Source: Bacteroidaceae bacterium (GTDB lineage: Bacteria > Bacteroidota > Bacteroidia > Bacteroidales > Bacteroidaceae). Taken from it: DNA of 41,702 bases. Positions 729 through 41,702 of this stretch are shown in pieces. The notes under the pieces were generated by a model that worked only from the letters and a program-made list of their open reading frames with translations, was not told the DNA's origin and ran no database searches. The DNA lies in assembly GCA_017445925.1 (NCBI GenBank), contig JAFSRW010000001.1:1-41702 (forward strand). Reading direction: 5' to 3'. Position numbers and translations under genes: made by a program. Within the stretch, counting starts at the first letter, position 1. Every line of letters begins with the position of its first letter.

Positions 729-1396
729 TTTCGAACTGGTATTAATTTCATTAGGTTGGTTGGTACTGATTTAATAGGTAAGAATTCATCTAATTAGGCC
801 AGATTAAATTGGTATTAATTTTAAGGAAAGATTCTTTCTGCTTACAAAGTTGCGAACGTTTTTTCATTCTTGCAATAGCAAGAAGCCCCAAAAGACAAGA
901 TTGAAAGGTTTTTTAGACAAGATTTATACTCGTCAGACAAAATCTAAAGTCTTTCAGACAAAATTTATAATCCAAAAAAGCGGGGAAAAAGGGGTCACTT
1001 GCATAATCCTGTGTTTAGATTCTCAAAGAAAAACACCGCTATCGCTAAAAAACTCTCATCTATCATTTAATCATTTATCATTTGGTTCCCGTTGACGTTA
1101 TCGTTTTTCATTGTAAACGGTTTTCTCTGTTTTTCGGTTCTGTTGCTAAAGCCGTAAGGCTGTATTCGGTTTGTGAAGCAGCGAAGGCAAGGTTAACTTG
1201 GATTCGATGATTCACGGACTGAATACCAATGGGTGAAACACATGAGCGAAAGAAACGGGTTTTAAAAAGGTTTTCTTTTTATCAACGAAATTGAAGAAGA
1301 ACCTTTCGGTTTAAACATGAAGCAGTAAGTCTGACACAGGAATTTACTGGTGAGCGGGGGAAAAGTGAAAACAGTCGGAACCCTCACCTCTGAACT
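729..1396. other. Gene-free stretch of about 670 bp
   Basis: I see no convincing coding region here. It contains the 20-22-bp-spaced AGACAARAT array (893-977), a simple repeat of ATCATTT words (about 1057-1080), and otherwise AT-rich sequence without a recognisable RNA gene. It lies downstream of the stop codon of the regulator at 1397-3064. Confidence 0.6.
893..977 (+). repeat. Four AGACAARAT sites at 22/20/21-bp steps
   Basis: AGACAAGAT, AGACAAGAT, AGACAAAAT and AGACAAAAT start at 893, 915, 935 and 956. The nine-base core is conserved while most of the following 11-13 bases differ, apart from YTA after the core in the last three copies. Spacing is close to two helical turns throughout. Confidence 0.6.
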
Positions 1397-3064
1397 TTAA
1401 TCTTCAGACAACGCGGCGGTGTTACGGCGGAATTCGGTGGGACTTATGCCAAAGTGCTGACGGAAGCAACTGCTAAAATAGGCACTGCCCCCGAAACCGC
1501 AGTCGGTGGCAACCTGAGTGATGGTACACTCAGGATTATCAACAAGAATTTGGGCTGCATAGTCCAAACGCAGTTGCAGGATATAGCCGGAAATCTTGGC
1601 GTGTCCGCTGCACTTAGTGAAGACGGCGCCCACACGCTCCTTGGAAAGCTGGAAGCGATCCATGATAGTCTGGCGTTCGAAGCTAGGGTCGAGGTAGAGG
1701 CGGTCACGCACGATTATTTCGTGGATGTGCCGGAAGAGCTGCTCGTCGGTGAGCGCATTAAGGTCGTCGGGGGCGACGGCAGAGTTAAGTGAAGAGTCAG
1801 GAGTGGAAAGTGAAGAATTACCTGCCGGTATAGTATTGGACTGTTCACATTCGAGGATTTTTTTCTTATAGCTAAGTGCCTCATTAATCTGCTGCGACAG
1901 GTAGTGGTTCTTGCTGCTGATGATGCGGTTCTTGTGGAGAATGATGACGGCAAGGACCGTAACACCGACGAGAACGGCGAGGACGCTGAACAGCAGGTAG
2001 CGGTTGCGGGTATTCTCAGCCTCTTGTCGCATGATAATCTGCTCCTGCTCCTTTTCGTGATAGACGGCAGCCAACTCCTGGGCCGAATTTCTAGCCTTGC
2101 GGGTCTTCAGCGTGTCCTGAATCTCCAGCACCTGCTCATAGAGTATAGCGGCCTGCTCGCAGTTGCCCATCTTCCGATAGACCTCAGCCAGTCCCCACTT
2201 GGCGGTGTTCATCATCTCGCCTAAGGTGTCGCCCTGCTGGCGTATGCGCAGGATCAGGTTGTTATAGATGGTGACGGCCTCCTGATAGCGTCCGCGCCTC
2301 TTCATGTAGTCCACGATGAAATAGTCGCGGGTGTGGTTGCCCTCGTACTGCACGGCCTTCCATGCAGCGTAGGCCGAATCGGCGCGCTGGAAATCGCCCA
2401 TCTTAGCCTGTAAAGCCGCCATCTTGGCCAGTGCCATGCGGCGGTCTATCAGCTGCTGGTTGGGAGCAGTTCCCCAGCGCGTACCCTCCATGGTGAGCTG
2501 CAGGTTGCGCTCGTTGGTCTGCAGGGCATTGTCATAGTCCTTCATCGCGCCATACATGCTGGCCAGCATATTCAAATAGCCGTGTATCAGGTGGTCGGTG
2601 TTGTCGTGGTCGATCTTCACCATCAGGTCGATGCCCTCGTTCATGCAGTGGATGCCCTTCTCGCGGTCGCCCTCATAGAAGAGGTTCTGGCCCATCGTGA
2701 TATACGCCAACGACAGGTAGTAGTTGTTGCCCGTCTGCTCGGCCAGGTCGCGCAACTGCTGTAACCATTTGTGTTGATCAACTTTGTGCCCTGAGAGCTC
2801 GCTGGTGTTGCAGAGGCAGTTCAGTACGTTCAGCCGTTTCTCGCTGTCGGCCTGCACCTCCTTGCTGTCTAACAGTTGCAGGTACAGTTTGTAGGCATCA
2901 CGGAACTGCATACTGTTGTAAAGCGAGTCGGCCATACCCATGGTCTGGGCAAACCCAGCATGATATGAACCATCATTTGCCGTTTCCTCCGTGTTACCGA
3001 TAGCGGTGCAACCCGTCATCAGGAGCAGAATGATTAAATATATGAATTTAGATAAACGACGCAT
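1397..3064 (-). CDS. TPR-membrane-AraC family transcriptional regulator (lipoprotein-like N-terminus)
   Basis: 555 residues. The N-terminus is a signal sequence with lipobox LMTGC (Cys19). Residues about 40-345 form tetratricopeptide-like helical repeats, a single membrane span follows (about 355-375), then a coiled linker, and the last ~100 residues are an AraC-type DNA-binding domain with two helix-turn-helix motifs (RFQLSKERVGAVF and ITQVATDCGFGGSAYFSSCF). By family knowledge this layout senses something in the periplasm through the TPR domain and acts on DNA in the cytoplasm without a kinase. The lipobox would tether the sensor to the membrane at both ends, which is unusual. A TAnnTTTG element (3087-3094, minus) lies just upstream of the ATG. 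Ligand and target genes are unknown. Confidence 0.85.
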   Translation of the reverse strand: MRRLSKFIYLIILLLMTGCTAIGNTEETANDGSYHAGFAQTMGMADSLYNSMQFRDAYKLYLQLLDSKEVQADSEKRLNVLNCLCNTSELSGHKVDQHKWLQQLRDLAEQTGNNYYLSLAYITMGQNLFYEGDREKGIHCMNEGIDLMVKIDHDNTDHLIHGYLNMLASMYGAMKDYDNALQTNERNLQLTMEGTRWGTAPNQQLIDRRMALAKMAALQAKMGDFQRADSAYAAWKAVQYEGNHTRDYFIVDYMKRRGRYQEAVTIYNNLILRIRQQGDTLGEMMNTAKWGLAEVYRKMGNCEQAAILYEQVLEIQDTLKTRKARNSAQELAAVYHEKEQEQIIMRQEAENTRNRYLLFSVLAVLVGVTVLAVIILHKNRIISSKNHYLSQQINEALSYKKKILECEQSNTIPAGNSSLSTPDSSLNSAVAPDDLNALTDEQLFRHIHEIIVRDRLYLDPSFERQTIMDRFQLSKERVGAVFTKCSGHAKISGYILQLRLDYAAQILVDNPECTITQVATDCGFGGSAYFSSCFRQHFGISPTEFRRNTAALSED

Positions 3065-3200
3065 ATCTTATTACATATTTTCTCTGCAAAAATACAAAAA
3101 AATGGAAAGCAAAGAGTTAAAACTATGACTTTTATTCCTAAAATAAAAGAAAAAGTGGATTTCTCTTACAAAATGACATTGGCTTTAGTTAAAAACAACC

Positions 3201-3350
3201 TTAACGAGGCTGTGTCGAAATAAAGAGATTACATGGAAAGTTTTTGTCCGTCACGTGCGAACTCTTAGTCCGTCCCGTACGGACACGCAGTCCGTCGCTT
3301 ACGGGCTATACTTACCCAAGGTACATCTTTATTTTATACAGCTTTAAGTT
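3201..3350. mobile_element. MITE-like element with imperfect terminal inverted repeats
   Basis: The left end GAGGCTGTGTCGAAATAAAGA (about 3206-3226) and the reverse complement of the right end (AGCTGTATAAAATAAAGA, about 3326-3343) share GCTGT and AATAAAGA, with a few mismatches and one gap. About 100 bp lie between, including the 22-bp repeat array. There is no transposase and no room for one. The ends recall IS termini of the GAGGCTGT type. The length and internal minisatellite resemble MITEs such as BrickBuilt of Porphyromonas gingivalis (from memory). Target-site duplications were not established. Confidence 0.45.
3246..3311 (+). repeat. Three 22-bp repeats, core GTCCGTCNCGTACGG
   Basis: Copies begin at exactly 3246, 3268 and 3290. 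The first 15 bases are conserved (GTCCGTC, then CGTGCG, CGTACG or CTTACG) and the last 7 differ. The middle copy contains the palindrome CCGTACGG. The array sits inside the MITE-like element. Confidence 0.75.
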
Positions 3351-3367
3351 TGAGCTTCGCTCGGGTT

Positions 3368-4996
3368 TCAAGAGGGGGATTTCTTTCCTTTCTTAAGTCT
3401 GGTTTTGACTTTCAGCTTATGCATCTGGTTGGTATCTGTAAAGGAGAAGTTGCAGTACACATTCATGAGTTTGTTCTTCTCCACCACGTTTCCTACAGCC
3501 TCTGCCCCATCGCTTACTATTGTTGCCGAGATATTATGTAATGTACCTATTACACAATGTACCTTCTCCACCTCAGCATCAACCTTTCCGATGGGCAGCT
3601 TGCCACCTTTCTGTCTTCGCGTCTGGGCTGTGCGCTGTTTTGATATATCAATGTGAAAATCAGCTTGGCATGCTATTTCATCCACTTGTTTTATATCCAT
3701 AACACGTCCTAACTGGAACGAACCTGTCTCAACACCTCCGTAAAGGTATTTGTTCAAGCCATCAACAGTAAAGTTCACATCTATATCGCCCGCCTCGGTT
3801 CCCAACTTTCCCGCAAAGACCACCTTCTTGAACAGTACATCAAAACAGCCCCTGAAGGTAACCTGCCCAAGGGCGCCCAGTTGTTTCATCATGAGCTTCT
3901 TGGTGGCAAAGTGGTTCACGATACGTTCCACCACCTTGTTTTGTGCAACCATCCTTTTCACATCAAAATGTACGCGCGTCTTATGCTTATCCTTCAGATG
4001 AGTGATTCGCCCCGCTGCCTCAATACGCAGTTGTTTGTTAGTTGTTGATACATGTACATTATCAAAACGCATACCTTCCTTATCACCGCTCATAGAACAC
4101 TGGGCCAGCAAGAGAGTGGTAAAATGATTCAGTCTGGGACCGAAGGGTTGGGCTATATCCTTAAGCTGGGTAGACAGACTGATATCAGGAATAGTGTAAT
4201 GCAGCGAGTCGCCCAGCCATAGCCGACCATTGGCTAAAGTAATGATAGAGTTAGGCAGGCGCACTCTCACCTCGTTTATGCAAATGCTGTCCTTGTTGGC
4301 ATCAGCCAACAGCAATAAACTGTCCACCAGCAAACCCGACCCTCGGTCTATGGCATGAAAATCAGAGATAGATACGTGCATGGATTTATCATCTGCCGAT
4401 TGGCTCAACTTTACCTTCATGGCAGCCAGAACATCCAGATGTCCTGCATCGAAGGCTCCCCGATGTGGGCGTCCCACATTTTTCCTTGGCTTACCGTTAT
4501 CTGTCTGGTAACAGAAACTGTCGACATTGACGGTCGCCTCTTCTATGCGAAATGCTATAGGCTTCTTTTTCGCATGAGACTGATTCCCCTTAAAAGCATC
4601 TTTCAGAAACATATAGTTTGCTGTACTGTCCGAGGCAGAGGCTGGTTTGCACAACAAAGTATTCAGGCCACTCACATTAGCCTTCCTTATTACGATATTC
4701 TTGTGCCAAAGCTCACCCAGGTCCAATCCGAGTGTCAGATTCCCCATCTGGAACATCTTGCGTCCCTGCCGGTCCTCAATCTCCACATCACGCAGTGTTA
4801 CTCCACCCCTGATTGGGCTTATGCTCACGTGTCCTATGCTCAGTTCCGTTTGCAGTTGTTCTTTTAGGATGCCAACAGCGTACTGAATCAGACGGTTCTG
4901 CACCCCGTCTGTACTCAGTAACAGCATTGCAGCCAGTATAAGAACGGCTACAACACCCAGACATGCACCTATAACTTTCAACACAATTCGCATCAT
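3368..4996 (-). CDS. AsmA/TamB-N-like inner-membrane protein
   Basis: 542 residues from the double ATG at 4991-4996. The frame extends to a TTG at 5026, but that leaves a leader of only about ten bases after the promoter. One N-terminal membrane anchor (about residues 3-28) is followed by a long beta-rich region beginning TELSIGHVSISPIRGGVTLRDVEI, the signature of the AsmA-like superfamily that scaffolds lipid traffic between membranes in diderm bacteria. The usual large TamB C-terminal domain is absent, so this is a short family member. It ends in a basic tail (KKGKKSPS). Its stop codon lies about 20 bp from the MITE-like element; truncation by that element is possible but not shown. It is divergent from sppA. 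Confidence 0.7.
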   Translation of the reverse strand: MMRIVLKVIGACLGVVAVLILAAMLLLSTDGVQNRLIQYAVGILKEQLQTELSIGHVSISPIRGGVTLRDVEIEDRQGRKMFQMGNLTLGLDLGELWHKNIVIRKANVSGLNTLLCKPASASDSTANYMFLKDAFKGNQSHAKKKPIAFRIEEATVNVDSFCYQTDNGKPRKNVGRPHRGAFDAGHLDVLAAMKVKLSQSADDKSMHVSISDFHAIDRGSGLLVDSLLLLADANKDSICINEVRVRLPNSIITLANGRLWLGDSLHYTIPDISLSTQLKDIAQPFGPRLNHFTTLLLAQCSMSGDKEGMRFDNVHVSTTNKQLRIEAAGRITHLKDKHKTRVHFDVKRMVAQNKVVERIVNHFATKKLMMKQLGALGQVTFRGCFDVLFKKVVFAGKLGTEAGDIDVNFTVDGLNKYLYGGVETGSFQLGRVMDIKQVDEIACQADFHIDISKQRTAQTRRQKGGKLPIGKVDAEVEKVHCVIGTLHNISATIVSDGAEAVGNVVEKNKLMNVYCNFSFTDTNQMHKLKVKTRLKKGKKSPS

Positions 4997-5042
4997 AGAA
5001 AAGGATTTCAGTTTGATTTTCGGCAATGACGTTTATTTGGCA

Positions 5043-5072
5043 CAAAGATAAAGAATATTTTCGAAAGAACAA
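5043..5072 (-). promoter_or_regulatory. Promoter of the AsmA-like gene
   Basis: TTG (5070-5072), 19 bp, then TATCTTTG (5043-5050) on the minus strand, matching the Bacteroidetes consensus. Confidence 0.7.
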
Positions 5073-5143
5073 GCAAATATTACCTTATTTATTATATAAG
5101 AACGTTACAATCACGCAGGTTAGAGCAAAAAAAACGGGGAAAA

Positions 5144-5175: not shown

Positions 5176-5210
5176 TTGGAAATATCTGTTAATTTAATAA
5201 AGAAAAAAAC

Positions 5211-6986
5211 ATGAAAGATTTCTTCAAGTATGTATGTGCCACAATTGTTGGCATTATCCTGACAAGCGTTATCATGACCGTTATCTGCATCGTATCTATG
5301 GCGGGCATGATGGCAAGTGAGAACATGAGTCAACCCGTTAAAGAGAACTCCATTTTGCGTATAAAACTACAAGGCACCATCTCGGAAAAAGGCGAAGATT
5401 CCAACCCTATGGCGTTGCTTATGAATGGAGCAGACATGGAGGATATTGCCCTTGATGTGGCATTAGATGCACTGAAAAAAGCTGCCAAGAACGATAAAGT
5501 GAAAGGTATTTATCTGGAAGGAGGCATTCTCTCCTCTAATCCTGCTGAGTTGCAAGAATTACGTCAGGGACTGATTGAGTTCAAGAAAAGCGGCAAATGG
5601 ATTGTTGCATACGCCGACCAATATTCACGTGCTTCATACTATCTGTGTTCAACAGCCGACAAGGTGTACATGAACCCCATAGGTATGCTTGACTGGAGCG
5701 GTATGGCCAGCGAACCTATCTTCTACAAGGGACTGTTAGAGAAAGTGGGCGTGAAGATGCAGGTATTCAAGGTGGGAACCTACAAGAGTGCCGTTGAGCC
5801 TTTCATCTGCGACCAGATGAGCGATGCCAACCGCGAGCAGGTTACCAGTTTCCTGAACAGCATCTGGGGAAACCTGCAGAAGGATGTGGCTTCGAGCCGA
5901 AAGTTGAAAGTGGAGGCACTGAACAGTCTGGCTGACAGCCTGACCTTGCTTTCAGATCCTGAGGCTAGCGTAAAAGGCGGCTTGGTGGACAAACTTTGCT
6001 ATAAGAGCGAGGTAAAGGAAGCGCTGAAGAAGCGCCTGGAATTGAAGGAGGACGACAAACTTACCTTCACCACCTTAAACGACGTGGCCCACTCAGAGGA
6101 TTTGAACGAGAAAGTTGACGATGAGATTGCCATATATTATGCTTACGGCGAGATTGAAGACGACCGCACCTCAGGCTTCGATCAGGAACACAGCATCACC
6201 TCTAAGGAGATGACCATGGATCTGCAGAAACTGGCTAATGACAAGGATGTTAAGGCCGTAGTTATCCGCGTTAACAGTCCTGGTGGATCAGCATACGCCA
6301 GCGAACAGATTTGGCATGAGATTGAGTTGCTGAAGGCCAAGAAGCCCGTTGTGATTAGTATGGGTGGTTTGGCTGCCAGTGGCGGCTACTACATCAGTTG
6401 CGGCGCCAACAAGATTTTTGCTGAGCCCACCACACTGACCGGCAGTATTGGTATCTTTGGTATGATTCCAGATGCCAGCGAGTTAATGACAAAGAAGTTG
6501 GGCCTCACATTCGACGTGGTTAAAACCAACGCACTGAGCGACTTTGGTTCTTTTGGTCGCCCCTTCAATGAGACAGAATGTCGCCTGATGCAGGCATACG
6601 TCAACAAGGGCTATGAACTCTTTACCGGAAGGGTAGCTAAAGGCAGAGGTATGGCTCAGGATAGCGTAAAGGCTATTGCCGAAGGCAGAGTATGGACTGG
6701 CGAGCAAGCTCTGAAGCTTGGCTTGGTTGACAAACTGGGTAATCTGGAAGATGCAGTAAAGGCTGCTGCCAAGATTGCCAAGGTGGAGAAATACACCATA
6801 GGAAAATATCCTGATGCTCAGCCTTGGTACATAGGTTTGTTGGACAAGAACACTAACGACTATCTGGAAGGTCACATACGTGCTTTGTTGGGCGATGAAT
6901 ATTACAAAGCATTTGGTCTGATTCGCAACCTCAAGAATCAGAATCCTATTCAGGCCCGCATTCCTTTTGATCCGAATATTAGATAG
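5211..6986 (+). CDS. sppA: Signal peptide peptidase SppA, long (67K) form
   Basis: 591 residues, the length of the two-domain SppA class. A membrane anchor occupies about residues 8-34. Two ClpP/crotonase-like S49 domains follow. The catalytic dyad is split between them as in E. coli SppA: lysine in GTYKSAVEPF (Lys192) and serine in GLAASGGYYIS (Ser390). The family cuts left-over signal peptides in the inner membrane. It is first gene of a plus-strand run with lpxK, purine nucleoside phosphorylase and thiL, and has its own promoter. The next gene starts about 150 bp downstream, after a 61-bp tandem repeat. Confidence 0.95.
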   Translation: MKDFFKYVCATIVGIILTSVIMTVICIVSMAGMMASENMSQPVKENSILRIKLQGTISEKGEDSNPMALLMNGADMEDIALDVALDALKKAAKNDKVKGIYLEGGILSSNPAELQELRQGLIEFKKSGKWIVAYADQYSRASYYLCSTADKVYMNPIGMLDWSGMASEPIFYKGLLEKVGVKMQVFKVGTYKSAVEPFICDQMSDANREQVTSFLNSIWGNLQKDVASSRKLKVEALNSLADSLTLLSDPEASVKGGLVDKLCYKSEVKEALKKRLELKEDDKLTFTTLNDVAHSEDLNEKVDDEIAIYYAYGEIEDDRTSGFDQEHSITSKEMTMDLQKLANDKDVKAVVIRVNSPGGSAYASEQIWHEIELLKAKKPVVISMGGLAASGGYYISCGANKIFAEPTTLTGSIGIFGMIPDASELMTKKLGLTFDVVKTNALSDFGSFGRPFNETECRLMQAYVNKGYELFTGRVAKGRGMAQDSVKAIAEGRVWTGEQALKLGLVDKLGNLEDAVKAAAKIAKVEKYTIGKYPDAQPWYIGLLDKNTNDYLEGHIRALLGDEYYKAFGLIRNLKNQNPIQARIPFDPNIR

Positions 6987-6987
6987 G

Positions 6988-7139
6988 TTAGAGGTTAGGG
7001 GTTAGAGGTTAGAGAGGCCAATAGCCAACGGCCAATAGCCAAAGTTCTTAATCGGTTAGAGATTAGAGGTTAGAGAGGCCAATAGCCAACGGCCAATAGC
7101 CAAAGTTCTTAATCGGTTAGAGATTAGAGATTAGAGAAA
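6988..7139 (+). repeat. 61-bp tandem duplication of simple-repeat words
   Basis: A unit made of TTAGAGGTTAGAG, GGCCAATAGCCAAC, GGCCAATAGCC and AAAGTTCTTAATCG occurs twice with a 61-bp offset (GGCC at 7016 and 7077), then a partial third copy runs to the lpxK start codon. The (GGCCAATAGCCAAC) words also appear, in reverse complement, at 20393-20480 and inside the LRR gene near 21431-21460. Confidence 0.85.
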
Positions 7140-9036: not shown

Positions 9037-10125
9037 TTGGAAATATCTGAATTGGGTGAGTTCGGACTGATACGCCGACTCACAGAAGAACTGAAAATAG
9101 AGAATCCTACCACCATGAAGGGTGTAGGAGATGATTGTGCTGTACTTTCACCCACAGAAGGCACGCAGACATTAGTGACAACCGACCTGCTGATGGAAGG
9201 TGTTCACTTCGACCTGATGTATGTCCCCCTAAAACATCTGGGCTACAAGGCCGTAATGGTGAATCTGAGTGATATCTATGCCATGAACGGCACCCCCCGA
9301 CAGATAACAGTCAGCCTGGCCATTAGCAAGAAGTTCACCGTAGAAGATATTGAGCAGCTCTATGACGGCATGAAACTGGCCTGCGAAAAGCATCATGTCG
9401 ATATAGTAGGCGGAGATACCACCAGCAGCCTTACCGGCTTGGCTATCAGCATTACCGCCGTTGGTGAAGCATTACCCCAAGATATCGTTTATCGTAATGG
9501 TGCCAAAGAAACCGACCTTATTTGCGTCAGTGGCAACTTAGGTGCCTCCTATATGGGCTTGCAACTGTTAGAGCGCGAAAAAGCTGTGTATCTTTCACAA
9601 GTTGACAAGTCGGACAAAAACACAGCAAACAACTCGTCAACTCGTCAACTCGTCAACTCGTCAACTATTAATGATTTCCAGCCCGATTTTTCTGGTTATG
9701 AATACCTACTGGAAAGACAACTGAAACCAGAGGCCCGTAGGGATATCATAGAAGCATTGGCAAAGGCCAACATACGCCCCACCAGCATGATGGACATCAG
9801 CGATGGTCTGAGCAGCGAACTCATGCACATCTGCTCACAGAGTAAAGTAGGCTGCCGAGTATATGAAGACCGCATCCCCCTTGACTACCAGACCGCAGCT
9901 ATGGCTGAAGAAATGAACATGAACGTCACCACCTGCGCCCTGAATGGTGGCGAAGATTACGAACTGCTCTTCACCGTCCCCCTGTCACAGAACGATGCCG
10001 TTAACGAGTTGGAAGACGTAAAAGTAATCGGCTATATCACCAAGGAGAGTTTGGGTAAGGTTCTCATCTGCAGAGACGGCAGCGAATTTGAGTTGAAAGC
10101 CCAAGGGTGGAATCCTCTCCAATAA
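9037..10125 (+). CDS. thiL: Thiamine-monophosphate kinase ThiL with an in-frame repeat insertion
   Basis: 362 residues, about 20-30 longer than I expect for ThiL. It phosphorylates thiamine phosphate to the cofactor thiamine diphosphate. Family motifs: LGEFGLI at the N-terminus, GDDCAVL (31-37), TTDLLMEGVHF, NLSDIYAMNG, GGDTTSS, and DISDGLSSEL in the AIRS C-terminal half. The start is TTG at 9037, chosen because MEISELGEFGLI matches the family N-terminus and no ATG is available. Residues about 187-211 are a low-complexity insert encoded by a tandem 8-bp repeat and have no counterpart I know in the family. It is last gene of the sppA run. Confidence 0.93.
   Translation: MEISELGEFGLIRRLTEELKIENPTTMKGVGDDCAVLSPTEGTQTLVTTDLLMEGVHFDLMYVPLKHLGYKAVMVNLSDIYAMNGTPRQITVSLAISKKFTVEDIEQLYDGMKLACEKHHVDIVGGDTTSSLTGLAISITAVGEALPQDIVYRNGAKETDLICVSGNLGASYMGLQLLEREKAVYLSQVDKSDKNTANNSSTRQLVNSSTINDFQPDFSGYEYLLERQLKPEARRDIIEALAKANIRPTSMMDISDGLSSELMHICSQSKVGCRVYEDRIPLDYQTAAMAEEMNMNVTTCALNGGEDYELLFTVPLSQNDAVNELEDVKVIGYITKESLGKVLICRDGSEFELKAQGWNPLQ
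9630..9666 (+). repeat. Tandem 8-bp repeat (CAACTCGT x 4.6) inside thiL
   Basis: Units start at 9630, 9638, 9646 and 9654, with a partial unit at 9662. Because 8 is not a multiple of 3, gain or loss of one or two units would shift the thiL frame; three units would keep it. Confidence 0.9.
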
Positions 10126-10208
10126 ATTATCCTTGTTTATTTGCATCAAGAAAATTTGTATGCATTCCCCCTATCTCCACGTCAGTGACTTTACGTATAT
10201 CATGCGGT

Positions 10209-10266
10209 GAGTTAACTCATAACATGTAACGAGTTAACTAATTACATGTATCGAGTTAAGTCCCTG
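10209..10266 (+). repeat. 22-bp repeats, core GAGTTAACT..ACATGTA, three copies
   Basis: Copies begin at exactly 10209, 10231 and 10253. The first two agree at 19 of 22 positions and each carries the palindromes GTTAAC and ACATGT. The first copy has the 10-bp palindrome GAGTTAACTC. The third keeps only GAGTTAA before diverging. Confidence 0.8.
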
Positions 10267-10346
10267 TTTTTGGGACCCATTTTCGTTCTAAAAAACGAAT
10301 TTATAGAATGTCTGTTTTTCTTCACCAAAATACCCCCAAAAATGCT

Positions 10347-10378
10347 GGCTCGAGCCAAAAGGGGAAATGGCTCGAGCC
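10347..10378 (+). repeat. Two GGCTCGAGCC palindromes 22 bp apart
   Basis: Perfect 10-bp palindromes begin at 10347 and 10369. The 12-bp segments that follow them (AAAAGGGGAAAT and ATTTTAGGCATA) differ. Confidence 0.85.
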
Positions 10379-10472
10379 ATTTTAGGCATACCCTAAAAGG
10401 CACTAAAAACATAACATGAGTTTAGAGCCTAAATTCAAATCAAAGGGGTATGGTTTTTTAAGCACGAAAGAA

Positions 10473-11426: not shown

Positions 11427-11478
11427 GTAAAATTAACAATTAACAATGAAGAATGAATAATTAACAGTTGGGAGATGG

Positions 11479-20391: not shown

Positions 20392-20392
20392 G

Positions 20393-20510
20393 GCTATTGG
20401 CTGTTGGCTATTGGCTGTTGGCTGTTGGCTGTTGGCTCTTGGCTATTGGCTCTTGGCCGTTGGCTGTTGGCTCTTGGCTCATCCCATTAGCCCCATAAGC
20501 CCCATAAGCC
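20393..20510. repeat. GGCTATT/GGCTGTT simple-repeat tract
   Basis: About thirteen GGCTATT, GGCTGTT or GGCTCTT words in tandem (7-8 bp period), followed by CCCATTAGCCCCATAAGCC words. Reverse complements of the same words form the 61-bp unit at 6988-7139. No coding content. Confidence 0.85.
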
Positions 20511-20580: not shown

Positions 20581-21078
20581 TTAGTCTTCATCCGCCCCCG
20601 GCTCATCACCGCCACCACCGGGCTCATCGCCGCCGCCACTGGGAGTATCCCCGCCGCCGCTGGGCGTATCATCATCCTCCTCTTCCTCCTCGCTGCCCTT
20701 GGCCCAGGTCAGCTTGGCGCTCTTGATGGCAGCCTCCACCTCCTCGCCGGCACGGTAGTAGAGCGAGGGCTTAACGTCAGACAGTTTCATATCCTCCTCC
20801 TTCTCATACCAACCGGCTGAGCAACTGGGATACAGCTTACCGATGGGGCCCAGATCCACTATGTAGCCCTGCTTCAGCATCTCGGCCACACTCTCTATGC
20901 ACAGCTCGAAGGCCATTCGCAGCTCCGCCTTGTGCATGGTGGTGTTATGGCCCGCCTCCTTAACAATGTCGTCGAACGCGGCTGTGCCGTTGGTTTGTAC
21001 TCGGGCCACAAAGCCCATTTGCTTAGTAGCAGGATTCTTGCTACTTGCCTTCTTAACTCGCAATTTTAATTGTGCCAT
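20581..21078 (-). CDS. HU-HIG family DNA-binding protein with acidic glycine-rich tail
   Basis: 165 residues from ATG at 21078, chosen because MAQLKLRVKKASSKNP begins the conserved domain; the frame extends 16 codons further without support. Residues 1-115 resemble the HU/IHF-like domain of the Bacteroidales-specific HU-HIG type. The last ~35 residues are low complexity: SEEEEEDDDTPSGGGD, then repeated GGGD and GGGGDEP units, ending ADED. Acidic tails on small DNA-binding proteins commonly moderate DNA binding. The upstream 43-163 bp hold the six-site 22-bp array, which makes this gene the likeliest regulated target or the source of the binding protein (inference). Confidence 0.85.
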   Translation of the reverse strand: MAQLKLRVKKASSKNPATKQMGFVARVQTNGTAAFDDIVKEAGHNTTMHKAELRMAFELCIESVAEMLKQGYIVDLGPIGKLYPSCSAGWYEKEEDMKLSDVKPSLYYRAGEEVEAAIKSAKLTWAKGSEEEEEDDDTPSGGGDTPSGGGDEPGGGGDEPGADED

Positions 21079-21120
21079 CTTTTTTAAAATCGTTATAGTT
21101 AAACTTACAATAATTATATT

Positions 21121-21241
21121 CTCCACGGACAGTGGTCCGATACTCCGCGGACTTCATTGTCAGAGTCCACCGACTTTTGAGCGAAACTCCACGGACTTTT
21201 TGCTAATTCTCCACGGACTTTCGGGCAAAAGTCCACGGAGT
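21121..21241 (-). repeat. Six CTCCACGGACT-like sites at exact 22-bp steps
   Basis: Plus-strand sites begin at 21121, 21143, 21165, 21187, 21209 and 21231. The 11-bp site is conserved (S-TCC-RC-GGA-like, nearly palindromic; the second copy contains TCCGCGGA, a perfect palindrome; the third is the weakest, GTCCACCGACT). The five 11-bp spacers share little sequence. The array fills the gap between the stop of the 49-residue peptide and the HU-HIG gene. A periodic operator or protein-binding array is the simplest reading. Confidence 0.85.
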
Positions 21242-21243
21242 GT

Positions 21244-24217: not shown

Positions 24218-25741
24218 TTACCTCCCAATCCAGCTTTCGGGATTCAGCTTGGTGGTTTCCTTGCGGAGCTGGAAATGAAGGACGCATTTGCCCGTACCAT
24301 CGTCGGCAACGGTACCGATAATGTCGCGGGTATTAACCTTCTGACCCTTGGAAACCGTAACGGAGGAAAGGTTACAGTAAACCGATATGTAACTGCCGTG
24401 ACGGATGAGCACATTGCTGGAGCCTCCGAACTGGAAGACTGCCGAAACCACGCCGGTGAAGATGGAACGGGCACGGGCTCCGGGACGGCCCACATAGTTG
24501 GTTCCCTTATTCTCCAACTGCACATTCGTCAGTCCAGGGACGTTATACTTACCAAAACGGTTGCCAATCATGTACTGGCCAGTGATGGGAACAGGCAATC
24601 GACCACGGTTCTGTTCGAAGGTGCCGTTCAGCTGCCGGTCCTCGGCTGTGAGCCATGTATCAGGCTTCAGGGGCGTAGGCTTGCCGGTGGACTTGGGAGC
24701 AGGCGTAGTTTTTCCGCCCGACTTACCCGCCGACTTGCCCGCCTTCTTACGCGCGGCTTCCTCGGCAGCCTTCTTGCGTGCAGCCTCTTCAGCTGCCTTC
24801 TTGCGGGCCGCAGCCTCGGCAGCCTTTCGGGCCTGCTCTATCTCGTAAGCTATCAGGTCGTCAATCTTCTTGTTCAGGGCATTCAGTTGCTTCTGCTGCT
24901 CGGCAATCTTTCCTGCCAAGCCCGACTCCTGCTTCTTCAGGCCTTCCACCTTCTTCTTCTGCTGTACCTGCTGGTAGCCCAGATCCTTACGCTGCAGCAT
25001 CACCTCGTGAACCAGGCTGCTCTTCCGGCTCTTGGTATCCAGGAGTTTATTCTGCTCCTCCAGCAGTTCGGCCTGCTTAATGAGAATCTGCTCGCCCAGA
25101 TTATGCTCGAACGATACGTATTCCTTGGCAAAGCGGGAACGGCGGAACATCTGCTTAACATTCCGGGCCGAAAGGATGAAGACGAGGCTGGAATTCTGGT
25201 TCTTCTGGGTACGGGCATAGCGTATGGCCTGCTTCAGCTTCTCGCGCTTCTCCTTCAGTTCCCCCTCCTTATCGCGAATCTTCCCCTGTAACTGTATGGC
25301 CAGGGAATCCAGCTCATCTATTTCCTTTTCCAGCCCCACAATCTGGTCCAGACGGTTGTTCAACTGAATACCTATATAATGGATGTTCTGCTGGCCTGCC
25401 TTCACTTGCTGCTTGGTCTTGGTCAGCTGGTCCTTGGATTTCTTAAGGGTATTCTGTAGCTCCGCCTTCTGCTTCTGCAACGCCTTCACCTTCTTACTGT
25501 TCTGGGAAAAAGCTATCGCAGGGAACAGCAGGAAAATGGCAAGGAGAGCCGTTTTTATGTAAGGAGTTAAAGGAGTTAGAGGAGTTAAAGGAGTTAAAGA
25601 CGATACTTTAGACTTCTTGAACGTCATTGGGGAGCATGTGTAGAACAAACGTCCTAGCGAAGCGATAACTCCTAGGCCGCAGGCCGATAACTCCTTAGCG
25701 AAGCGATAACTCCTTAGCGAAGCGATAACTCCTTCCTTCAT
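24218..25741 (-). CDS. EnvC-like murein hydrolase activator (degenerate LytM domain)
   Basis: 507 residues if started at the ATG overlapping the DUF4292 stop (25739-25741); a second ATG is at 25627. A signal peptide-like segment lies unusually far in, at residues 62-80 (IKTALLAIFLLFPAIAFSQ). Coiled-coil regions (about 81-305), an Ala/Lys/Glu repeat (AAEEAARKK, about 305-335) and a C-terminal M23/LytM fold (about 395-505) follow. Zinc ligands are missing: the HxH end reads LHFQLRK and the first HxxxD is absent, so it should activate amidases rather than cut peptidoglycan. The first 61 codons are mostly interspersed repeat DNA, including LTPLTPLTPLTP. Confidence 0.85.
   Translation of the reverse strand: MKEGVIASLRSYRFAKELSACGLGVIASLGRLFYTCSPMTFKKSKVSSLTPLTPLTPLTPYIKTALLAIFLLFPAIAFSQNSKKVKALQKQKAELQNTLKKSKDQLTKTKQQVKAGQQNIHYIGIQLNNRLDQIVGLEKEIDELDSLAIQLQGKIRDKEGELKEKREKLKQAIRYARTQKNQNSSLVFILSARNVKQMFRRSRFAKEYVSFEHNLGEQILIKQAELLEEQNKLLDTKSRKSSLVHEVMLQRKDLGYQQVQQKKKVEGLKKQESGLAGKIAEQQKQLNALNKKIDDLIAYEIEQARKAAEAAARKKAAEEAARKKAAEEAARKKAGKSAGKSGGKTTPAPKSTGKPTPLKPDTWLTAEDRQLNGTFEQNRGRLPVPITGQYMIGNRFGKYNVPGLTNVQLENKGTNYVGRPGARARSIFTGVVSAVFQFGGSSNVLIRHGSYISVYCNLSSVTVSKGQKVNTRDIIGTVADDGTGKCVLHFQLRKETTKLNPESWIGR
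25560..25738. repeat. Mosaic GGAGTTAAAG / GCGAAGCGATAACTCC repeat, copy 2, over the envC-like start
   Basis: It contains GGAGTTAAAG tandem words, ACTTTAGACTTCTTG, GGAGCATGTGTAGAAC and multiple AGCGAAGCGATAACTCCT words, in the same order as copy 1 at 196-396. It begins just before the hydrophobic core of the signal peptide and ends at the start codon. Confidence 0.85.
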
Positions 25742-28349: not shown

Positions 28350-28392
28350 CCTAATCTCTAATCTCTCAACTTTAAACTCTAAACTCTAAACT
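28350..28392 (-). repeat. TAAACTC tandem spacer, first copy
   Basis: CTAATCTCTAATCTCT followed by TAAACTCTAAACTCTAAACT fills the gap between dut and the TPR gene. A similar tract is at 30206-30241. Confidence 0.8.
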
Positions 28393-28827
28393 TTATTTCA
28401 CTCCACTATGTCCGAAGCCACCGGCTCCGCGTTCAGTCTCATCAAGCACCTCCACCTGTTCCCATTCTGCCTGTTCATGACGAGCAATAATCATCTGGGC
28501 AATACGTTCACCGTCTTCAATGATGAAAGGTTCGGTTGAGAGATTTATCAGTATTACACACACCTCGCCACGATAATCGGCATCGATGGTACCTGGAGAA
28601 TTCAATACCGTTATGCCACGCTTCAGAGCAAGTCCGCTTCTGGGACGCACCTGTGCTTCGTAGCCCTTAGGCAAGGAGATAAAGAGACCCGTAGGAATCA
28701 GGTGTCTCTCCATAGGTCTCAATTCAATGGGAGCCTGCAAATTAGCTCTTAAATCTACGCCTGCTGACTGTTCAGTAGCATATTGGGGCAGTACATGATG
28801 ACTGCGATTAACTATCTTTATTTTCAT
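28393..28827 (-). CDS. dut: dUTP diphosphatase
   Basis: 144 residues from ATG at 28827 (MKIKIVNRS matches the family start; another in-frame ATG lies 5 codons upstream). All five motifs of trimeric dUTPases are present: [40 protein letters not shown], and the C-terminal [10 protein letters not shown]. It removes dUTP and supplies dUMP for thymidylate synthesis. It starts 8 bp from the dGTPase stop, so both nucleotide-pool enzymes are coupled. Confidence 0.96.
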
Positions 28828-30190: not shown

Positions 30191-30205
30191 CTTATCTAAA
30201 CTCAC

Positions 30206-30241
30206 AACTCTAATCTCTAAACTCTAAACTCTAAACTCAAC
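30206..30241 (-). repeat. TAAACTC tandem spacer, second copy
   Basis: CTAATCTCTAAACTCTAAAC repeats between glsB and dgt, like the tract at 28350-28392. Confidence 0.8.
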
Positions 30242-33895: not shown

Positions 33896-33896
33896 A

Positions 33897-36152: not shown

Positions 36153-36186
36153 AATCGTTTGTTTTGTTTGTTTGTTTATTATTGTA

Positions 36187-37356: not shown

Positions 37357-37379
37357 TACTTATCTTCAACAAATATTGT

Positions 37380-38831
37380 TTAGAACAACACCTTCTTACC
37401 ACTCACAACATAAATGCCATGTGAGGGATTCTTAACCCTACGACCAGAGAGGTCGTAAACATCTGATGATGATTTATGCAATGATACCACATCGTTAACG
37501 GCATCAATCTCCTCCTGATTTATAAAATCGTCTGTGCCAACCTGAACATTTACTATCTGACCCAAGGTTTCCTGTATATCAATGTCGATGGTAACAAATA
37601 GCTTATTCTCATTCATCTTGCCCTGGAGTTTCATAGGAATCTCGCCTACCATAGGACCTGCCCAATTATTAACACCTTCCATATCACCTGGCTGAATGGT
37701 AACAGCTCCTTCAAAAGTAATATAATCCAGACCATCATCACCCTTCGTTACAGGGATGTTTTCTATCTTAATATTACCAACAGGAATAGATGTCTCACCA
37801 TTGGGAAGGAAAAAGTTCTTGAGTTCAAAGTCTATGGTCTGATTAGCGTTGTCTATTACAGTAACGCCTGTCATCTGAGGCTCCGAGCTCTCACCATTAA
37901 CAGTGATAACAAGTTGCTCGGTATAGATTTTCTCAGTAGCAAAAAAGTTATCCCTGCCAAACTGAACGAAGAGAACTTGACCGAAAGCCTCACGAATATC
38001 AATATCAATGGCGGCATACATCTTATCATCTGTCATCTTACCGCGAAGGTCAAGGGGAATCTCACCAAACTCGGGACCCACCCAAAAGTCAACCCCTGGC
38101 ATGTCACCAGGCTGAATAACCAAGTTGCCCTTAAAGGTTAATATTTTCACACCGTTCTCACCTTCTGTTACGGGAAGGTTCTCGATAACAATATTCCCAA
38201 CAGGAACGGAGTTCTCACCAGCAACCATGAAGAAGTTTTTCATGATGAAGTTAATTGTTCCATTACCATTGTCAACCACTTTAACGTCAGCGGTCTGGGG
38301 TTCTGAACTCTGGTCATTGATGGTGATAACAAGTTGCTCAGTATAGATTTTGCCAGGAGTGAAATCGTCCGTACCGAACTGAACAAAGAGAACCTGACCG
38401 AAAGCCTCACGAATATCAATATCAATGGCGGCATACATCTTATCGTCTGTCATCTTACCGCGAAGGTCAAGGGGAATCTCACCAAACTCGGGACCTACCC
38501 AAAAGTCAACCCCTGGCATGTCACCGGGCTGAATAACCAAAGTTCCATTGAAAGTGAATGATTTCACACCGTTCTCGCCATCTGTTACAGGAAGGTTCTC
38601 GAGGATAATGTGACCAACGGGTATTGAATTTTCACCAGCAACCATGAAGAAGTTTCTCAGTTCAAAGTTAATTGTTCCATTCCCGTTGTCAACCACTTTA
38701 ACGTCAGCTGTCTGGGGCTCTGAACTCTGGTCGTTGATGGTGATAACCAACTTGTCTGTATAGGTCTTAACCTGAGCAGAAACTGCCAATGCAGTAAATG
38801 CACAAAATAATACGAGTAAAAGTTTTTTCAT
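37380..38831 (-). CDS. Secreted protein with three tandem calycin-like domains
   Basis: 483 residues. Signal peptide ends at Ala19-Gln20. Three repeats of about 137 residues start at 21, 160 and 300, each beginning TYTDKLVITINDQ-like and containing QPGDM.GV..W.GP..GEIP and DIDI(R/Q)E..GQ. Repeats 1 and 2 are almost identical; repeat 3 has diverged. The end, VYDLSGRRVKNPSHGIYVVSGKK (458-480), is a sorting-signal type motif. Calycin-like (lipocalin-like) domains bind small hydrophobic ligands or carbohydrates; the ligand here is unknown. Confidence 0.85.
   Translation of the reverse strand: MKKLLLVLFCAFTALAVSAQVKTYTDKLVITINDQSSEPQTADVKVVDNGNGTINFELRNFFMVAGENSIPVGHIILENLPVTDGENGVKSFTFNGTLVIQPGDMPGVDFWVGPEFGEIPLDLRGKMTDDKMYAAIDIDIREAFGQVLFVQFGTDDFTPGKIYTEQLVITINDQSSEPQTADVKVVDNGNGTINFIMKNFFMVAGENSVPVGNIVIENLPVTEGENGVKILTFKGNLVIQPGDMPGVDFWVGPEFGEIPLDLRGKMTDDKMYAAIDIDIREAFGQVLFVQFGRDNFFATEKIYTEQLVITVNGESSEPQMTGVTVIDNANQTIDFELKNFFLPNGETSIPVGNIKIENIPVTKGDDGLDYITFEGAVTIQPGDMEGVNNWAGPMVGEIPMKLQGKMNENKLFVTIDIDIQETLGQIVNVQVGTDDFINQEEIDAVNDVVSLHKSSSDVYDLSGRRVKNPSHGIYVVSGKKVLF
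37941..38771 (-). repeat. Near-identical 417-bp tandem duplication in the calycin gene
   Basis: The DNA of repeat 1 (about 38361-38771) and repeat 2 (about 37941-38354) is nearly the same for long stretches, for example GGGAATCTCACCAAACTCGG in both. The offset is 139 codons, a multiple of three, so recombination would keep the frame. Confidence 0.85.
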
Positions 38832-38846
38832 AAAATTATCGTTATA

Positions 38847-39653
38847 TTAATATCTGTAAGCTAATCCAAATGTTGCATAAACAGGGTACATCTTGAAGGC
38901 AACAGCATCAAAATCCTTCTCCCAAATATTGGTCAAACCCCAATCGACCTTTGCAAAGACATTCATATGCTTGCAAGCCTTCCAGTCGAAACCGAACTCG
39001 ATGCCGGCATTCCATGTACGCATATTATCCGTAAAATCGTATGTAGAGGGGTTAGTCCTGTCCATATAAATCTTTTCACCAGTAGGGTCATCAACACGAA
39101 GATAGCCCACACCTTTATCATTATCATACCCCAAACCGCTGAAATTACGTTTGAAATAGGTACTGAAATATGGGCCGAAACTGAAATTCCAACGTGGAGA
39201 CATTCTTAAGGTCGCCAAGATGGGTATAGTCATTCCCCACATATCTGTATTGGTGACATCTGTTCCAGTAAAATAGCCCGACATGGTGTTGCCATCCATC
39301 GTCAGAGACATCTTATAATTCTTTACATCGGCACTTGTATGGAAACCCTCGTAAAAGAAATGCCAACCCATACTGGCACCCCAGCGCTTACCAAACATCT
39401 TATATATATCAACACCAATGGTAGCACCTCCCTTCGGAGAGAACTCATTGATGGCCCGAATCTCGTTTGGCAAAGGCAATGGAGTAGTACCGCCAAAAGT
39501 ATAACCTGCGCGAACTAACACGCCAGCCCCCTTCATGCCCCGTGTAGGGCCCCACCTGTCCCAGCTGTCCTGAGCCTGGGAAACGGCTGAGCACAATAGG
39601 ACAACCGTAGCAAAAAGATATTTCAATTTATAAGTCACTATCATTTTCATCAT
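38847..39653 (-). CDS. Outer-membrane beta-barrel protein
   Basis: 268 residues. The signal peptide ends SAVSQAQ. Alternating hydrophobic/polar strands run through the length, with aromatic ends (GMKGAGVLVRAGYTFGG, FSFGPYFSTYF, AGIEFGFDWKACKHM), and the last residues VYATFGLAYRY carry the C-terminal aromatic typical of barrel insertion. The specific substrate is not evident. It lies between the PCMD lipoprotein and the triple-calycin gene. Confidence 0.82.
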   Translation of the reverse strand: MMKMIVTYKLKYLFATVVLLCSAVSQAQDSWDRWGPTRGMKGAGVLVRAGYTFGGTTPLPLPNEIRAINEFSPKGGATIGVDIYKMFGKRWGASMGWHFFYEGFHTSADVKNYKMSLTMDGNTMSGYFTGTDVTNTDMWGMTIPILATLRMSPRWNFSFGPYFSTYFKRNFSGLGYDNDKGVGYLRVDDPTGEKIYMDRTNPSTYDFTDNMRTWNAGIEFGFDWKACKHMNVFAKVDWGLTNIWEKDFDAVAFKMYPVYATFGLAYRY

Positions 39654-39692
39654 TAATTCTAAACTTTATCGTTATCGTTGACGTTCCCGTTA

Positions 39693-40931
39693 TCAATACT
39701 CGTCCTTGTCACAATAAAGTGAAACATTATGTATAAACAACTTATTTCCGATAGCTCCCATGAACTTACCTCCTTGCCAACTGCTTGCAAAACTCATGGC
39801 AAGACTGTAACCTTTATTGGCAAGAATGGTCTGATCCACCTCCTTATAATAAACCAGCGGAATCTCAACGAGTTGCCATTCGGAAGTCAAGCCGTGAATA
39901 GGAGTATCGCAAAGCTTATCCGATCCGTCTTCGTTAAGGTTATGGGGAAGACGGCCTAAAGCGACAATATGCGGATTGGTAAACATGTCGTTACCGTCAA
40001 TCATTACCTCATTTCCTGCCTCATCCTGATTACGATAGAATACCACGTAAACATCGGGCTCATCCACGATACCCTCCATAGGGTTTCCCTTTCTGTCCTG
40101 GAATACCGGTCCTGGCTCAAACTTGAGCCAAACAGTCATCTTAACAGGCTTATGACTGAAAGGTGCACCAAAACGGGTAGCCTTAAGTGCATCCTTGAGG
40201 GCATTACTTACATCAAAGATACCATTAAACATACTGCCACTGGCCAGTTTCATGTTTACCATATTACCAAAAGCTCCGGTATCTTTGGTCTCCAACTTCA
40301 CACAGGTAGTTCCGCCAGGTCCCCCATTGGCAAGGGGTACAGATGGATACTCCATAGGCTTGGCTGATGATTTACTCAACTTAAAACCAGGATTACCGTT
40401 TTTCCACTTCCCGTCAGGAAAAGCATTTGCAGCATTTACATCCGAAATAGTCCACTCATAAAACTTACCTGTGGGATCAAGCGCATAGTTCTCAAAGCCG
40501 ACAGTGAAATCGCCCTCAGTGGGAACATCGTGTTTGAACATAAGTGAATAGGTCCTGTTCCACTGCTTATCCTGGGAAACAATTCGGAACACCTGGAGCC
40601 TTTCGTCTGAAAAGTCAACAAGACTACCGTTCTTGAACGCAACAAAAGCACCGCTTGCATCCTTAATGAATGCAGTAGCACCTGATGTAATCTCCAAGGT
40701 CAAAGGTAAATGGGAAACATTAGACTGTGAGCGGATGATAAATTCCACCTTATCTGAGGAAGAATCAACAATCTTTAGCGTATCATACAAATGGTGAAAA
40801 ATGTCATTTGGACTATCGACATGTACTGACGCCGTTTCAATGTCACACTCAGAATTCAACGGCTCCTCACCAAAACAAGAACAGAGAACAACGGCTCCTA
40901 AAAACAAGATTTGAGAAATAAATTTTCGCAT
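39693..40931 (-). CDS. PCMD-domain lipoprotein
   Basis: 412 residues. Lipobox LCSC (Cys19) in MRKFISQILFLGAVVLCSC. An N-terminal Ig-like region (about 50-140) precedes a PCMD (putative carbohydrate metabolism domain) fold: GFENYALDPTGKFYEW, SDVNAANAF, FPDGKWKNGNPGFKL, GGTTCVKLETKDTGAFG. The end region carries KLFIHNVSLYCD. Presumably an outer-membrane surface lipoprotein, first gene of the six-gene locus. Confidence 0.85.
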   Translation of the reverse strand: MRKFISQILFLGAVVLCSCFGEEPLNSECDIETASVHVDSPNDIFHHLYDTLKIVDSSSDKVEFIIRSQSNVSHLPLTLEITSGATAFIKDASGAFVAFKNGSLVDFSDERLQVFRIVSQDKQWNRTYSLMFKHDVPTEGDFTVGFENYALDPTGKFYEWTISDVNAANAFPDGKWKNGNPGFKLSKSSAKPMEYPSVPLANGGPGGTTCVKLETKDTGAFGNMVNMKLASGSMFNGIFDVSNALKDALKATRFGAPFSHKPVKMTVWLKFEPGPVFQDRKGNPMEGIVDEPDVYVVFYRNQDEAGNEVMIDGNDMFTNPHIVALGRLPHNLNEDGSDKLCDTPIHGLTSEWQLVEIPLVYYKEVDQTILANKGYSLAMSFASSWQGGKFMGAIGNKLFIHNVSLYCDKDEY

Positions 40932-40959
40932 TATAACATTCGATTTTTAAATTTGGCTG

Positions 40960-40967
40960 CAAAATTA
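40960..40967 (-). promoter_or_regulatory. -7 element (TAATTTTG) for the surface-protein operon
   Basis: The element lies about 30 bp upstream of the PCMD lipoprotein ATG. No convincing -33 element lies at the standard distance. Confidence 0.45.
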
Positions 40968-41180
40968 CTCCAAATAAATTCTACTGACATATAAATATGG
41001 TAGCATTTGTTAACAAATCTTGGTAAAGGGGACAAAAATTCGGTATAGCATATTAAATTTCGGTATAAATTTAAAACGAAAACATTAACGTCAAGTTCAA
41101 AAGATTAAGAAAACGAGCGGTGAAATGGGAAATTTTACTAATTTGAAAGAGAAATTGTAAATATTGAAAGAAGGAAAATG

Positions 41181-41335
41181 AAAGGAGTTAAAGAAGTTAA
41201 AGAAGTTAAAGAAGTTATCGCTTCGCTCGTCCATTCGGACAGAAGGCTGCGATTAAGCGAGAGCAATGATAAGCTTGCTTAAGCAATGCCGAGCGGTAGC
41301 AGGCTCGACCGTTAGGTCAAGTTAAAGACGATAGT
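41181..41335. repeat. Mosaic GGAGTTAAAG repeat, copy 3 (partial)
   Basis: AGGAGTTAAAGAAGTTAAAG words, GAAGTTATCGCTTCGCTCG, TCCATTCGGACAG and AGTTAAAGACGATAGTTA match copy 1 at 196-396 (which has TCCGAATGGACGAGCGAAG in reverse), but the middle differs. Confidence 0.75.
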
Positions 41336-41448
41336 TACGCCAAAAGGTGGAGGAGAATCTATTTGTCGCGAGTTAGAGAAAACAAAAGAGACGGAAAAAT
41401 AAAAGAGGATGTGTTGCAATAGGAAACAGGTAATACGGCAGAAATAAT

Positions 41449-41532
41449 TATTTTCAAACTTTGGTAATATATTTTCATGGCTTGAAAATAAATAATCATG
41501 GTTTGAGAATATATTTTCACGCCTTGAAAATA
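41449..41532 (+). repeat. Four contiguous 21-bp imperfect palindromes
   Basis: Units start at 41449, 41470, 41491 and 41512. Units 2 and 4 are TATTTTCA-N5-TGAAAATA; units 1 and 3 are variants. Cores differ (AACTT, TGGCT, TGGTT, CGCCT). Confidence 0.85.
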
Positions 41533-41580
41533 ATTTTTTTGGGCAATTAAAACCTTTTATATTGTAGTTTAACGATTTTA

Positions 41581-41702
41581 GTTGACAGCTTAGAGGCTTA
41601 TTTGTATTACTCGTTGATTACTTTGAGTCTTATTTGTAGTGTAGGTTGATGTGGTTAAACTTTATTTATATTTCTTGTTGATTCTTGTTTTTGTTATTCA
41701 CA
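41581..41702 (+). repeat. 32-bp-period array, open at the window edge
   Basis: GTTGAC/GTTGAT occurs at 41581, 41613, 41645 and 41677, and TTATTTGTA/TTATTTATA at 41598, 41630, 41662 with TTATT at 41694. Both words keep an exact 32-bp step while the bases between them vary. The array may continue to the right. Confidence 0.75.

Follow-up and report, generated by a model that had tools for sequence, protein, structure and literature searches.

Why should one bacterial contig carry, in its intergenic DNA, several arrays of short repeated words in which the words differ from array to array, while the distance between the repeats hardly changes? This question is raised by a stretch of 41,702 nucleotides from a Bacteroidaceae bacterium (GenBank assembly GCA_017445925.1, contig JAFSRW010000001.1), which was analyzed over its full length and is called here the window, or contig C75; its source genome is assembled to 3.3 Mb in 100 contigs with 84% completeness. 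According to the original prediction, seven such arrays obey one rule of spacing without sharing one sequence. All seven were found by direct reading in the places described, and six of them were also recovered in the repeat-finder list or in the array scan. The arrays are real, are seen across the sampled relatives, and in the window are mostly carried by dispersed elements. The reading that we favor, and that we consider probable rather than certain, is that, in a Prevotella-like bacterium of the rumen, they form the repeated interior of small, dispersed, non-coding elements, of which there are several families, resembling miniature inverted-repeat transposable elements (MITEs) and built like BrickBuilt. 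The arrays of the window, and the elements in which they lie, are the following.

893..976, + strand: family C array, AGACAARAT at 893, 915, 935 and 956 (steps 22, 20 and 21)
3206..3345, + strand: family A element, hairpin arms 3206-3226 and 3326-3345 enclosing the array
3246..3306, + strand: family A array, GTCCGT-N5-ACGGAC type dyads at 3246, 3268 and 3290, period 22
10180..10283, + strand: family B left module, GAGTTAACTC-NNN-ACATGT-NNN type units at 10209 and 10231, partial core at 10253, period 22
10330..10435, + strand: family B right module, TGGCTCGAGCCA at 10346 and 10368, period 22
21121..21242, + strand: array D, CTCCACGGAC-type units at 21121, 21143, 21165, 21187, 21209 and 21231, period 22
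41447..41537, + strand: family E array, four TATTTTCA-N5-TGAAAATA type dyads, period about 21
41563..41702, + strand: module F, starting TGTAGTTTAACGATTTTAGTTGA, with GTTGA at 41581, 41613, 41645 and 41677, period 32

The arrays at 10209 and 10347, which had been counted as separate, are two modules of one dispersed element (family B). All seven arrays lie outside the called genes, as had been claimed, although array D at 21121 overlaps six bases of the frame 20581-21126 if a GTG start is used.

The regularity of the spacing was assessed by counting exact 8-mer recurrences at each lag against 20 dinucleotide shuffles, in a main set that combines the window with 80 relatives (610 intergenic regions, 134,729 bp in all). 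The relatives are Bacteroidaceae/Prevotella assemblies, mostly ruminant, that were picked through the EamA-like gene of the window; since the loci of the main set flank one orthologous gene, one array can count in several species. Genes were called with a trained hexamer score, and runs of period <=12 were masked before the lag counts. There were 55 recurrences at lag 21 (shuffle mean 3.4, maximum 6) and 74 at lag 22 (mean 3.8, maximum 10), with harmonics at lags 42, 44, 63 and 66; lag 20 gave 11 (mean 3.3, maximum 9) and lag 23 gave 6 (mean 3.2, maximum 7). When distinct words were counted once, through clustering by shared words, 30 clusters were obtained at lag 21 and 56 at lag 22, and 4-9 clusters at lags 19, 20, 23, 24 and 31-33. 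The coding DNA of 40 of the 80 relatives (591,625 bp) gave 46 recurrences at lag 21, inside the 28-69 range of the other multiples of three, and 14 at lag 22.

Lag counts were also made in other samples. In the 4,379 bp of the window outside called genes, 11 exact 8-mer runs fall at lags 20-22, whereas 400 dinucleotide shuffles averaged 0.34 and never exceeded 3. A sample of 441.7 kb from the source genome, consisting of the window and 20 stretches that are all on contigs already known to hold a match, showed 9 recurrences at lag 21 and 15 at lag 22 (1.2 each in shuffles). In 400 kb of G017, a genome of the same genus, the counts at lags 21, 22 and 23 were 6, 24 and 11 (0.6, 1.1 and 1.0 in shuffles), and lags 44 (13) and 66 (10) were also strong. 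A 200-kb control sample of E. coli K-12, with the rRNA operon excluded, supplied 19,921 bp in 92 intergenic regions and showed no recurrences at lags 20-23. The idea of one rule under many intergenic words is thus borne out across the relatives, with enrichment at lags 21 and 22.

The series of helical turns that had been proposed together with this rule did not hold up. Whereas the predicted enrichment over shuffled intergenic DNA was found in the window at lags 20-22, at lags 31-33 there was 1 run versus 0.34, a count reached by 112 of the 400 shuffles. Lag 32 was marginal in the main set (9; shuffle mean 3.6, maximum 7), and it gave 0 in the own-genome sample (1.1 in shuffles) and 2 in G017 (0.9 in shuffles); three-turn phasing as a class was rejected. 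The 32-bp array itself is real (GTTGA four times) but is one element, part of a single conserved module, and not a class. In G017, moreover, one family is built on 23 bp (GTTAACTTAAC type) and the GTGCCAC-type arrays on 22 and 23 bp, and therefore exact two-turn phasing is not maintained. The rule is a fixed unit of 21-22 bp, or 23 bp in some families of G017, rather than a succession of helical turns. It may be added that G017 is array-rich: its 28.8 kb of sampled intergenic DNA hold 24 arrays with units of 21-23 bp, and it would be a better study subject than the window genome.

When each array was searched against the source genome, six of the seven proved to sit in sequences that are repeated elsewhere in it. 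The family A element, about 140 bp long, has 85-87% copies on contigs C36, C22, C29, C13 and C67, of which C13 and C29 carry one and the same sequence at their ends, as well as a partial copy on C15; in another genome (G095), a 4-unit copy lacks the right arm. A query with family B (10180-10410) yielded 35 alignments on 17 contigs of the source genome, window included. The left part occurs alone on C31, C48 (near 5.2 kb) and C100 (near 66 kb), the right part alone on C95, C1 and C67, and the right module has 2-3 units in the other own-genome copies. Family C was found on C64 (6 cores, steps of 21 with one of 20) and in two places in C33, and family E on C99 and C100 as well as in four other genomes (G059, G063, G013 and G065). 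Each family has its own word, about 2-6 units and a fixed step of 21-23 bp, and the unit number varies within families. Among strong arrays (at least 3 copies or a core of at least 10), a match elsewhere in the sample was found for 10 of 13 in the own-genome sample (12 of 39 matched intergenic pieces) and for 7 of 17 in G017 (5 of 51). Judging from these alignments, the differing words at different loci are largely explained by differing dispersed families.

Family B is common to a sister species (G133, the genome of locus L017). Four family B sites are shared by the two genomes, with flank identities of 94-99%: the left arrays are identical at two of them, one base is missing at the third, and only the right module is present at the fourth. 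At another site (flanks 98%) the left module is absent in the sister, and the sister's version of the window site 10330..10435 has one right-module unit. In the interval between ThiL and EamA, read by eye, the window has one subfamily and the sister a version with TGATCA in place of ACATGT and in the opposite orientation; no array was seen by eye in the corresponding interval of L019 (229 bp). Additionally, one family A copy is common to the source genome and G063, which gives the same hits as G134 (the genome of L018). This pattern of sites would fit movement and loss over short times. Apart from the arrays, the ThiL-EamA interval of L017 (11660-13070) also has an ATPase-like gene by a tRNA-like remnant, which is apparently whole in L019 and absent from the window (all read by eye, with no tRNA search made).

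It had also been proposed that the cores are kept while the spacers are not, and that the cores are often palindromic. Both properties were tested on 52 arrays with at least 3 copies. Because the choice of arrays by exact 8-mers creates a "core" on its own, uniform decay was simulated under the same detection rule, with a null that is less diverged than the most diverged arrays (e.g. mean identity 0.64 versus 0.53) and that makes the five lowest p values rough. The core was sharper than under this null at p <= 0.05 in 9 arrays, and the other 43 fit uniform decay; the three window arrays among the 52 gave p = 0.083 (21165), 0.200 (3245) and 0.300 (10209). The argument that minisatellites would have preserved their spacers was consequently too strong, once detection is allowed for. 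For the dyad test, the best dyad of each array consensus was compared with letter shuffles, and 255 windows from the same regions served as controls, these being single sequences, not consensuses, with 60 shuffles each. Ten arrays beat the shuffles at p <= 0.05 and six at p <= 0.01, versus 7 of the 255 control windows at 0.05; array D had p 0.003. Dyads are commoner than chance, as had been suggested, though most arrays do not pass alone.

Family B allowed a closer view of a single unit. Left units were picked by GAGTTAAC, a single mismatch being allowed, and right units by GGCTCGAGCC, so that both words are conserved by construction, and units were read on both strands from overlapping loci. 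Among 29 distinct own-genome units, one of them plainly unrelated, the ACATGT word at positions 14-19, which was unused in the search, is conserved at 0.97-1.00, and the linkers 11-13 and 20-22 at only 0.45-0.62. The two palindromes of a unit are 11 bp apart, and the units are spaced by 22 in 119 of 121 own-genome cases (overlapping loci, both strands).

Under the reading of the arrays as parts of MITE-like elements, the copies of each family would have spread to many intergenic sites, and neighbouring loci would then show different words under one rule. The elements would be moved by a transposase or recombinase, and a dimeric protein would bind the dyads, most probably the protein that mobilises the elements or one of its partners. 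A footprint of about two turns of this protein would set the unit length, and its specificity would co-evolve with the word.

A number of observations weigh against this reading. Array D has no other match in the source genome. The own-genome controls are themselves rich in repeats, as the matched pieces above indicate, and two of the ten matched own-genome arrays match repeats of other kinds. Terminal inverted arms are clear in family A only and weak in family E, and none were noticed by eye in B or C. No clear target-site duplication was seen by eye in five family A copies, of which four have complementary flanks that could hide one, and no clean empty site with a target duplication was found among the sites compared. 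The arm motif of family A has 9 hits in the source genome, all at element copies; no parent transposon with the same ends was found there, in fragmented assemblies that may miss multi-copy transposons, and among 120 other genomes of the genus the motif occurs in two, both with the array. No mobilising gene or transposase was found beside the arrays among the few flanking genes examined. The binding of DNA by proteins, which had been suggested from the sequence, is plausible for the dyad families, but no array-binding protein was identified. Moreover, the 43 arrays that do not beat uniform decay, and the 42 that fail the dyad test at 0.05, are the majority. Finally, the sister's 33 distinct family B units show 0.55-0.91 at the inner-word positions versus 0.55-0.70 in the linkers, because other subfamilies with other inner words are present; spacers freer than cores are thus seen in family B of the own genome, where the second word is kept and the linkers are free, but not in the mixed set of the sister.

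Some of these points would be expected if the arrays were neutral minisatellites, in which units of 21-23 bp are simply what tandem duplication produces in this clade, through a replication or slippage bias near two turns, and in which some arrays hitch-hike in mobile elements with no protein reading them. The fit of most arrays to uniform decay under the same detection rule speaks for this explanation, and near-identical arrays do occur (as at locus L075). The distribution among genes agrees with it as well: for 86 arrays the density per kb was 0.97 between convergent, 0.72 between co-directional and 0.32 between divergent genes, and in a larger set of 127 arrays it was 1.06, 0.64 and 0.45 (chi-square p 0.006, relatedness ignored), as expected where insertions harm least. 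It is at odds, however, with the dyad excess, with own-genome family B units that hold a second palindrome while their linkers vary, and with the conserved module F, described below, which adjoins dyad arrays of different words; we regard it as rather unlikely. The same densities bear on the arrays as host operators, that is, phased sites to which transcription factors or nucleoid proteins would bind at particular genes or in particular parts of the chromosome. The dyads would suit such a role, and so would array D, which lies just upstream of a gene with an HU-HIG domain. But the arrays are sparsest in divergent intervals, the very places in which promoters face each other, and therefore a promoter operator is unlikely as the main role; the family copies also lie in varied gene contexts, as judged by orientation and distance only. 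We consider host operators improbable.

The arrays might also act as RNA hairpins, e.g. as terminators or 3-prime stabilisers. Of six window stretches, five fold well (z of -5.33 for A, -4.04 for B left, -4.73 for B right, -4.80 for D and -6.32 for E), but C folds no better than shuffles (-0.92). Family A folds end to end, and in five copies its stem is kept via two-sided changes at 7 of 48 predicted pairs. The family C copies on C64 and C33 (three) come after terminator-like hairpins, by eye. In contrast, the eight sequences of family E show a two-sided change at 1 of 27 pairs, and their units mix the half-sites TTTTCAAG and AACCAAG, which do not pair with each other, a pattern that favours half-sites of a DNA-binding protein over RNA stems; RNA stems appear disfavoured for E and may still exist for A. 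Adjacency to terminators as a general rule was rejected, with 1 of 127 arrays near terminator-like sites versus 1.9% at random, in a weak test whose strict rule found sites in just 11 of the 127 regions, and Rfam gave no match in the window. RNA devices thus seem very improbable as a general explanation.

The favored reading places the arrays close to two groups of repeats that have already been described. BrickBuilt, a MITE of Porphyromonas gingivalis, is present in 19 copies that are always intergenic and contain inner tandem units of 23 nt; long stem-loops are predicted for it, its unit number differs between strains, it is confined to P. gingivalis and its near kin, and 22- and 41-nt repeats are also mentioned for P. 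gingivalis (PMC4596501). As in BrickBuilt, the units here are short and in tandem, and stand in small dispersed non-coding intergenic elements of Bacteroidales: families A, B, C and E/F, though not D, are dispersed in multiple copies and have inner direct repeats of 20-23 nt. Unlike BrickBuilt, they form at least four families in one genome, with units of 21-22 (23 in some of G017) in about 2-6 copies, with dyads and free linkers in one family, and with neither a clear target-site duplication nor a parent transposon found. In passages by Subirana and Messeguer, satellites keep a constant unit size, 20-23 nt in some of them, while their sequence varies, and two helical turns are offered as a possible reason; there are several families per genome, non-coding and spread within the genome, with a short conserved word in most (PMC8161180, PMC6749651). 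The stem "bacteroid" does not appear in PMC8161180. The constant unit, the variable sequence, the non-coding position and the several families per genome are all found here; an enclosing small element is not described in those passages, whereas here dispersed repeats enclose six of the seven arrays in the window. The searches made turned up no report of arrays of this kind in Prevotella. A further paper by Subirana and Messeguer is said to treat bacterial tandem repeats. The transposon ends bound by TnsB of Tn7 and MuA of Mu carry several 22-bp transposase sites, direct repeats of about two turns that are read by one protein and are not palindromes. Module F resembles such ends in its TG start and in its words, which recur every 32 bp; the arrays here differ in their excess of dyads, with no transposase gene identified beside them among the few flanking genes examined. 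In REP/BIME or REPIN elements, tagged palindromes of 20-40 bp go with a RAYT gene.

Module F stands directly beside the family E array. Two contigs, C75 and C99, break off after 140-141 bases of it and are identical there, which probably marks a repeat that the assembler could not cross. Matches to it were found in 7 of 60 other genomes of the genus searched, some of them weak, and the GTTGA words hold the 32-bp step at two of these loci (L201 and L202, by eye). In 9 of 10 distinct contexts, from the source genome and seven others, a dyad array lies within 160 nt upstream of the module (by eye); L211, without the start of F, was excluded, and L207 and C99 have E arrays too. The array words are of the TTTTCAAG type in six contexts, GTGCCAC at L201, AGTACCA at L205 and GAAACG at L202. 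At L199 there is no dyad array upstream, and F starts inside a gene, which from its appearance we take to encode a ZIP transporter. The position of F beside arrays of differing words, in a few genomes, appears to be the strongest support for one rule under different words.

It is conceivable, though doubtful, that F is a conserved module (TG end, 32-bp words) working with the adjacent 21-23 bp dyad array, the word being exchanged in some species and the architecture kept. The two would then form a clade-wide, fast-evolving pair of site and protein, e.g. of an undescribed transposition, target-selection or partition system. That six of the nine adjacent arrays have one word type counts against an exchanged word. 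Our confidence in this proposal, as well as in the MITE-like reading of the arrays, was lowered on this account and because the second palindrome of family B is not conserved in the sister. A role of F as an rRNA leader was rejected: the copies in G059 adjoin ordinary protein genes, and Rfam gave just one tRNA in six loci. Among viral contigs there were no exact matches to 23 bases of F and three to 18 bases, which do not continue like F, and among plasmids and phages no match at E 1e-5. At one locus (L200/L208, G063:C3, about 83440-83640), a second, inverted F start lies across the E array, which is thus bracketed by two F ends. At L210 (G059) a small gene, which by its look we presume to encode a HigB-type toxin, directly follows a truncated F module.

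Several other features were noted. No viral relatives of the HU-HIG protein were confirmed. A bare hairpin with the family A stem was sought and set aside as rare (3 hits in the own-genome sample on both strands, 7 in the 80 relatives, 0 in G017 and 0 in one shuffle of the own sample). The window also has arrays of 7-bp units at 6985-7137, 11431-11466, 20392-20479, 28350-28395 and 30195-30238 (words AGGTTAG, AATTAAC, GGCTGTT, CTAAACT and TCTAAAC), and lag 7 is also high in the unmasked set of relatives (55 runs). An 8-bp repeat, CAACTCGT in 4.6 copies at 9630-9666, lies within the frame of an AIR-synthase-like gene (9037-10125), and this part of the query matches G003 many times. By eye, an intergenic repeat of AAGGAGTTA-type units with a CGCTTCGCTCGTCCATTCGGA-like word recurs at 180-400, 25561-25734 and 41181-41340.

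Satellites with fixed units of 20-23 nt and without a shared sequence are termed enigmatic in passages by their describers, Subirana and Messeguer. Here such arrays are found to lie within small sequences that are themselves dispersed, and at least one family combines dyads with free linkers. The puzzle of a repeat independent of its sequence is thereby made testable, since one can ask whether any protein reads the array, which one it is, and whether the length of the unit follows from its footprint. Module F, which lies by arrays of different words, may provide a handle for finding such a protein.

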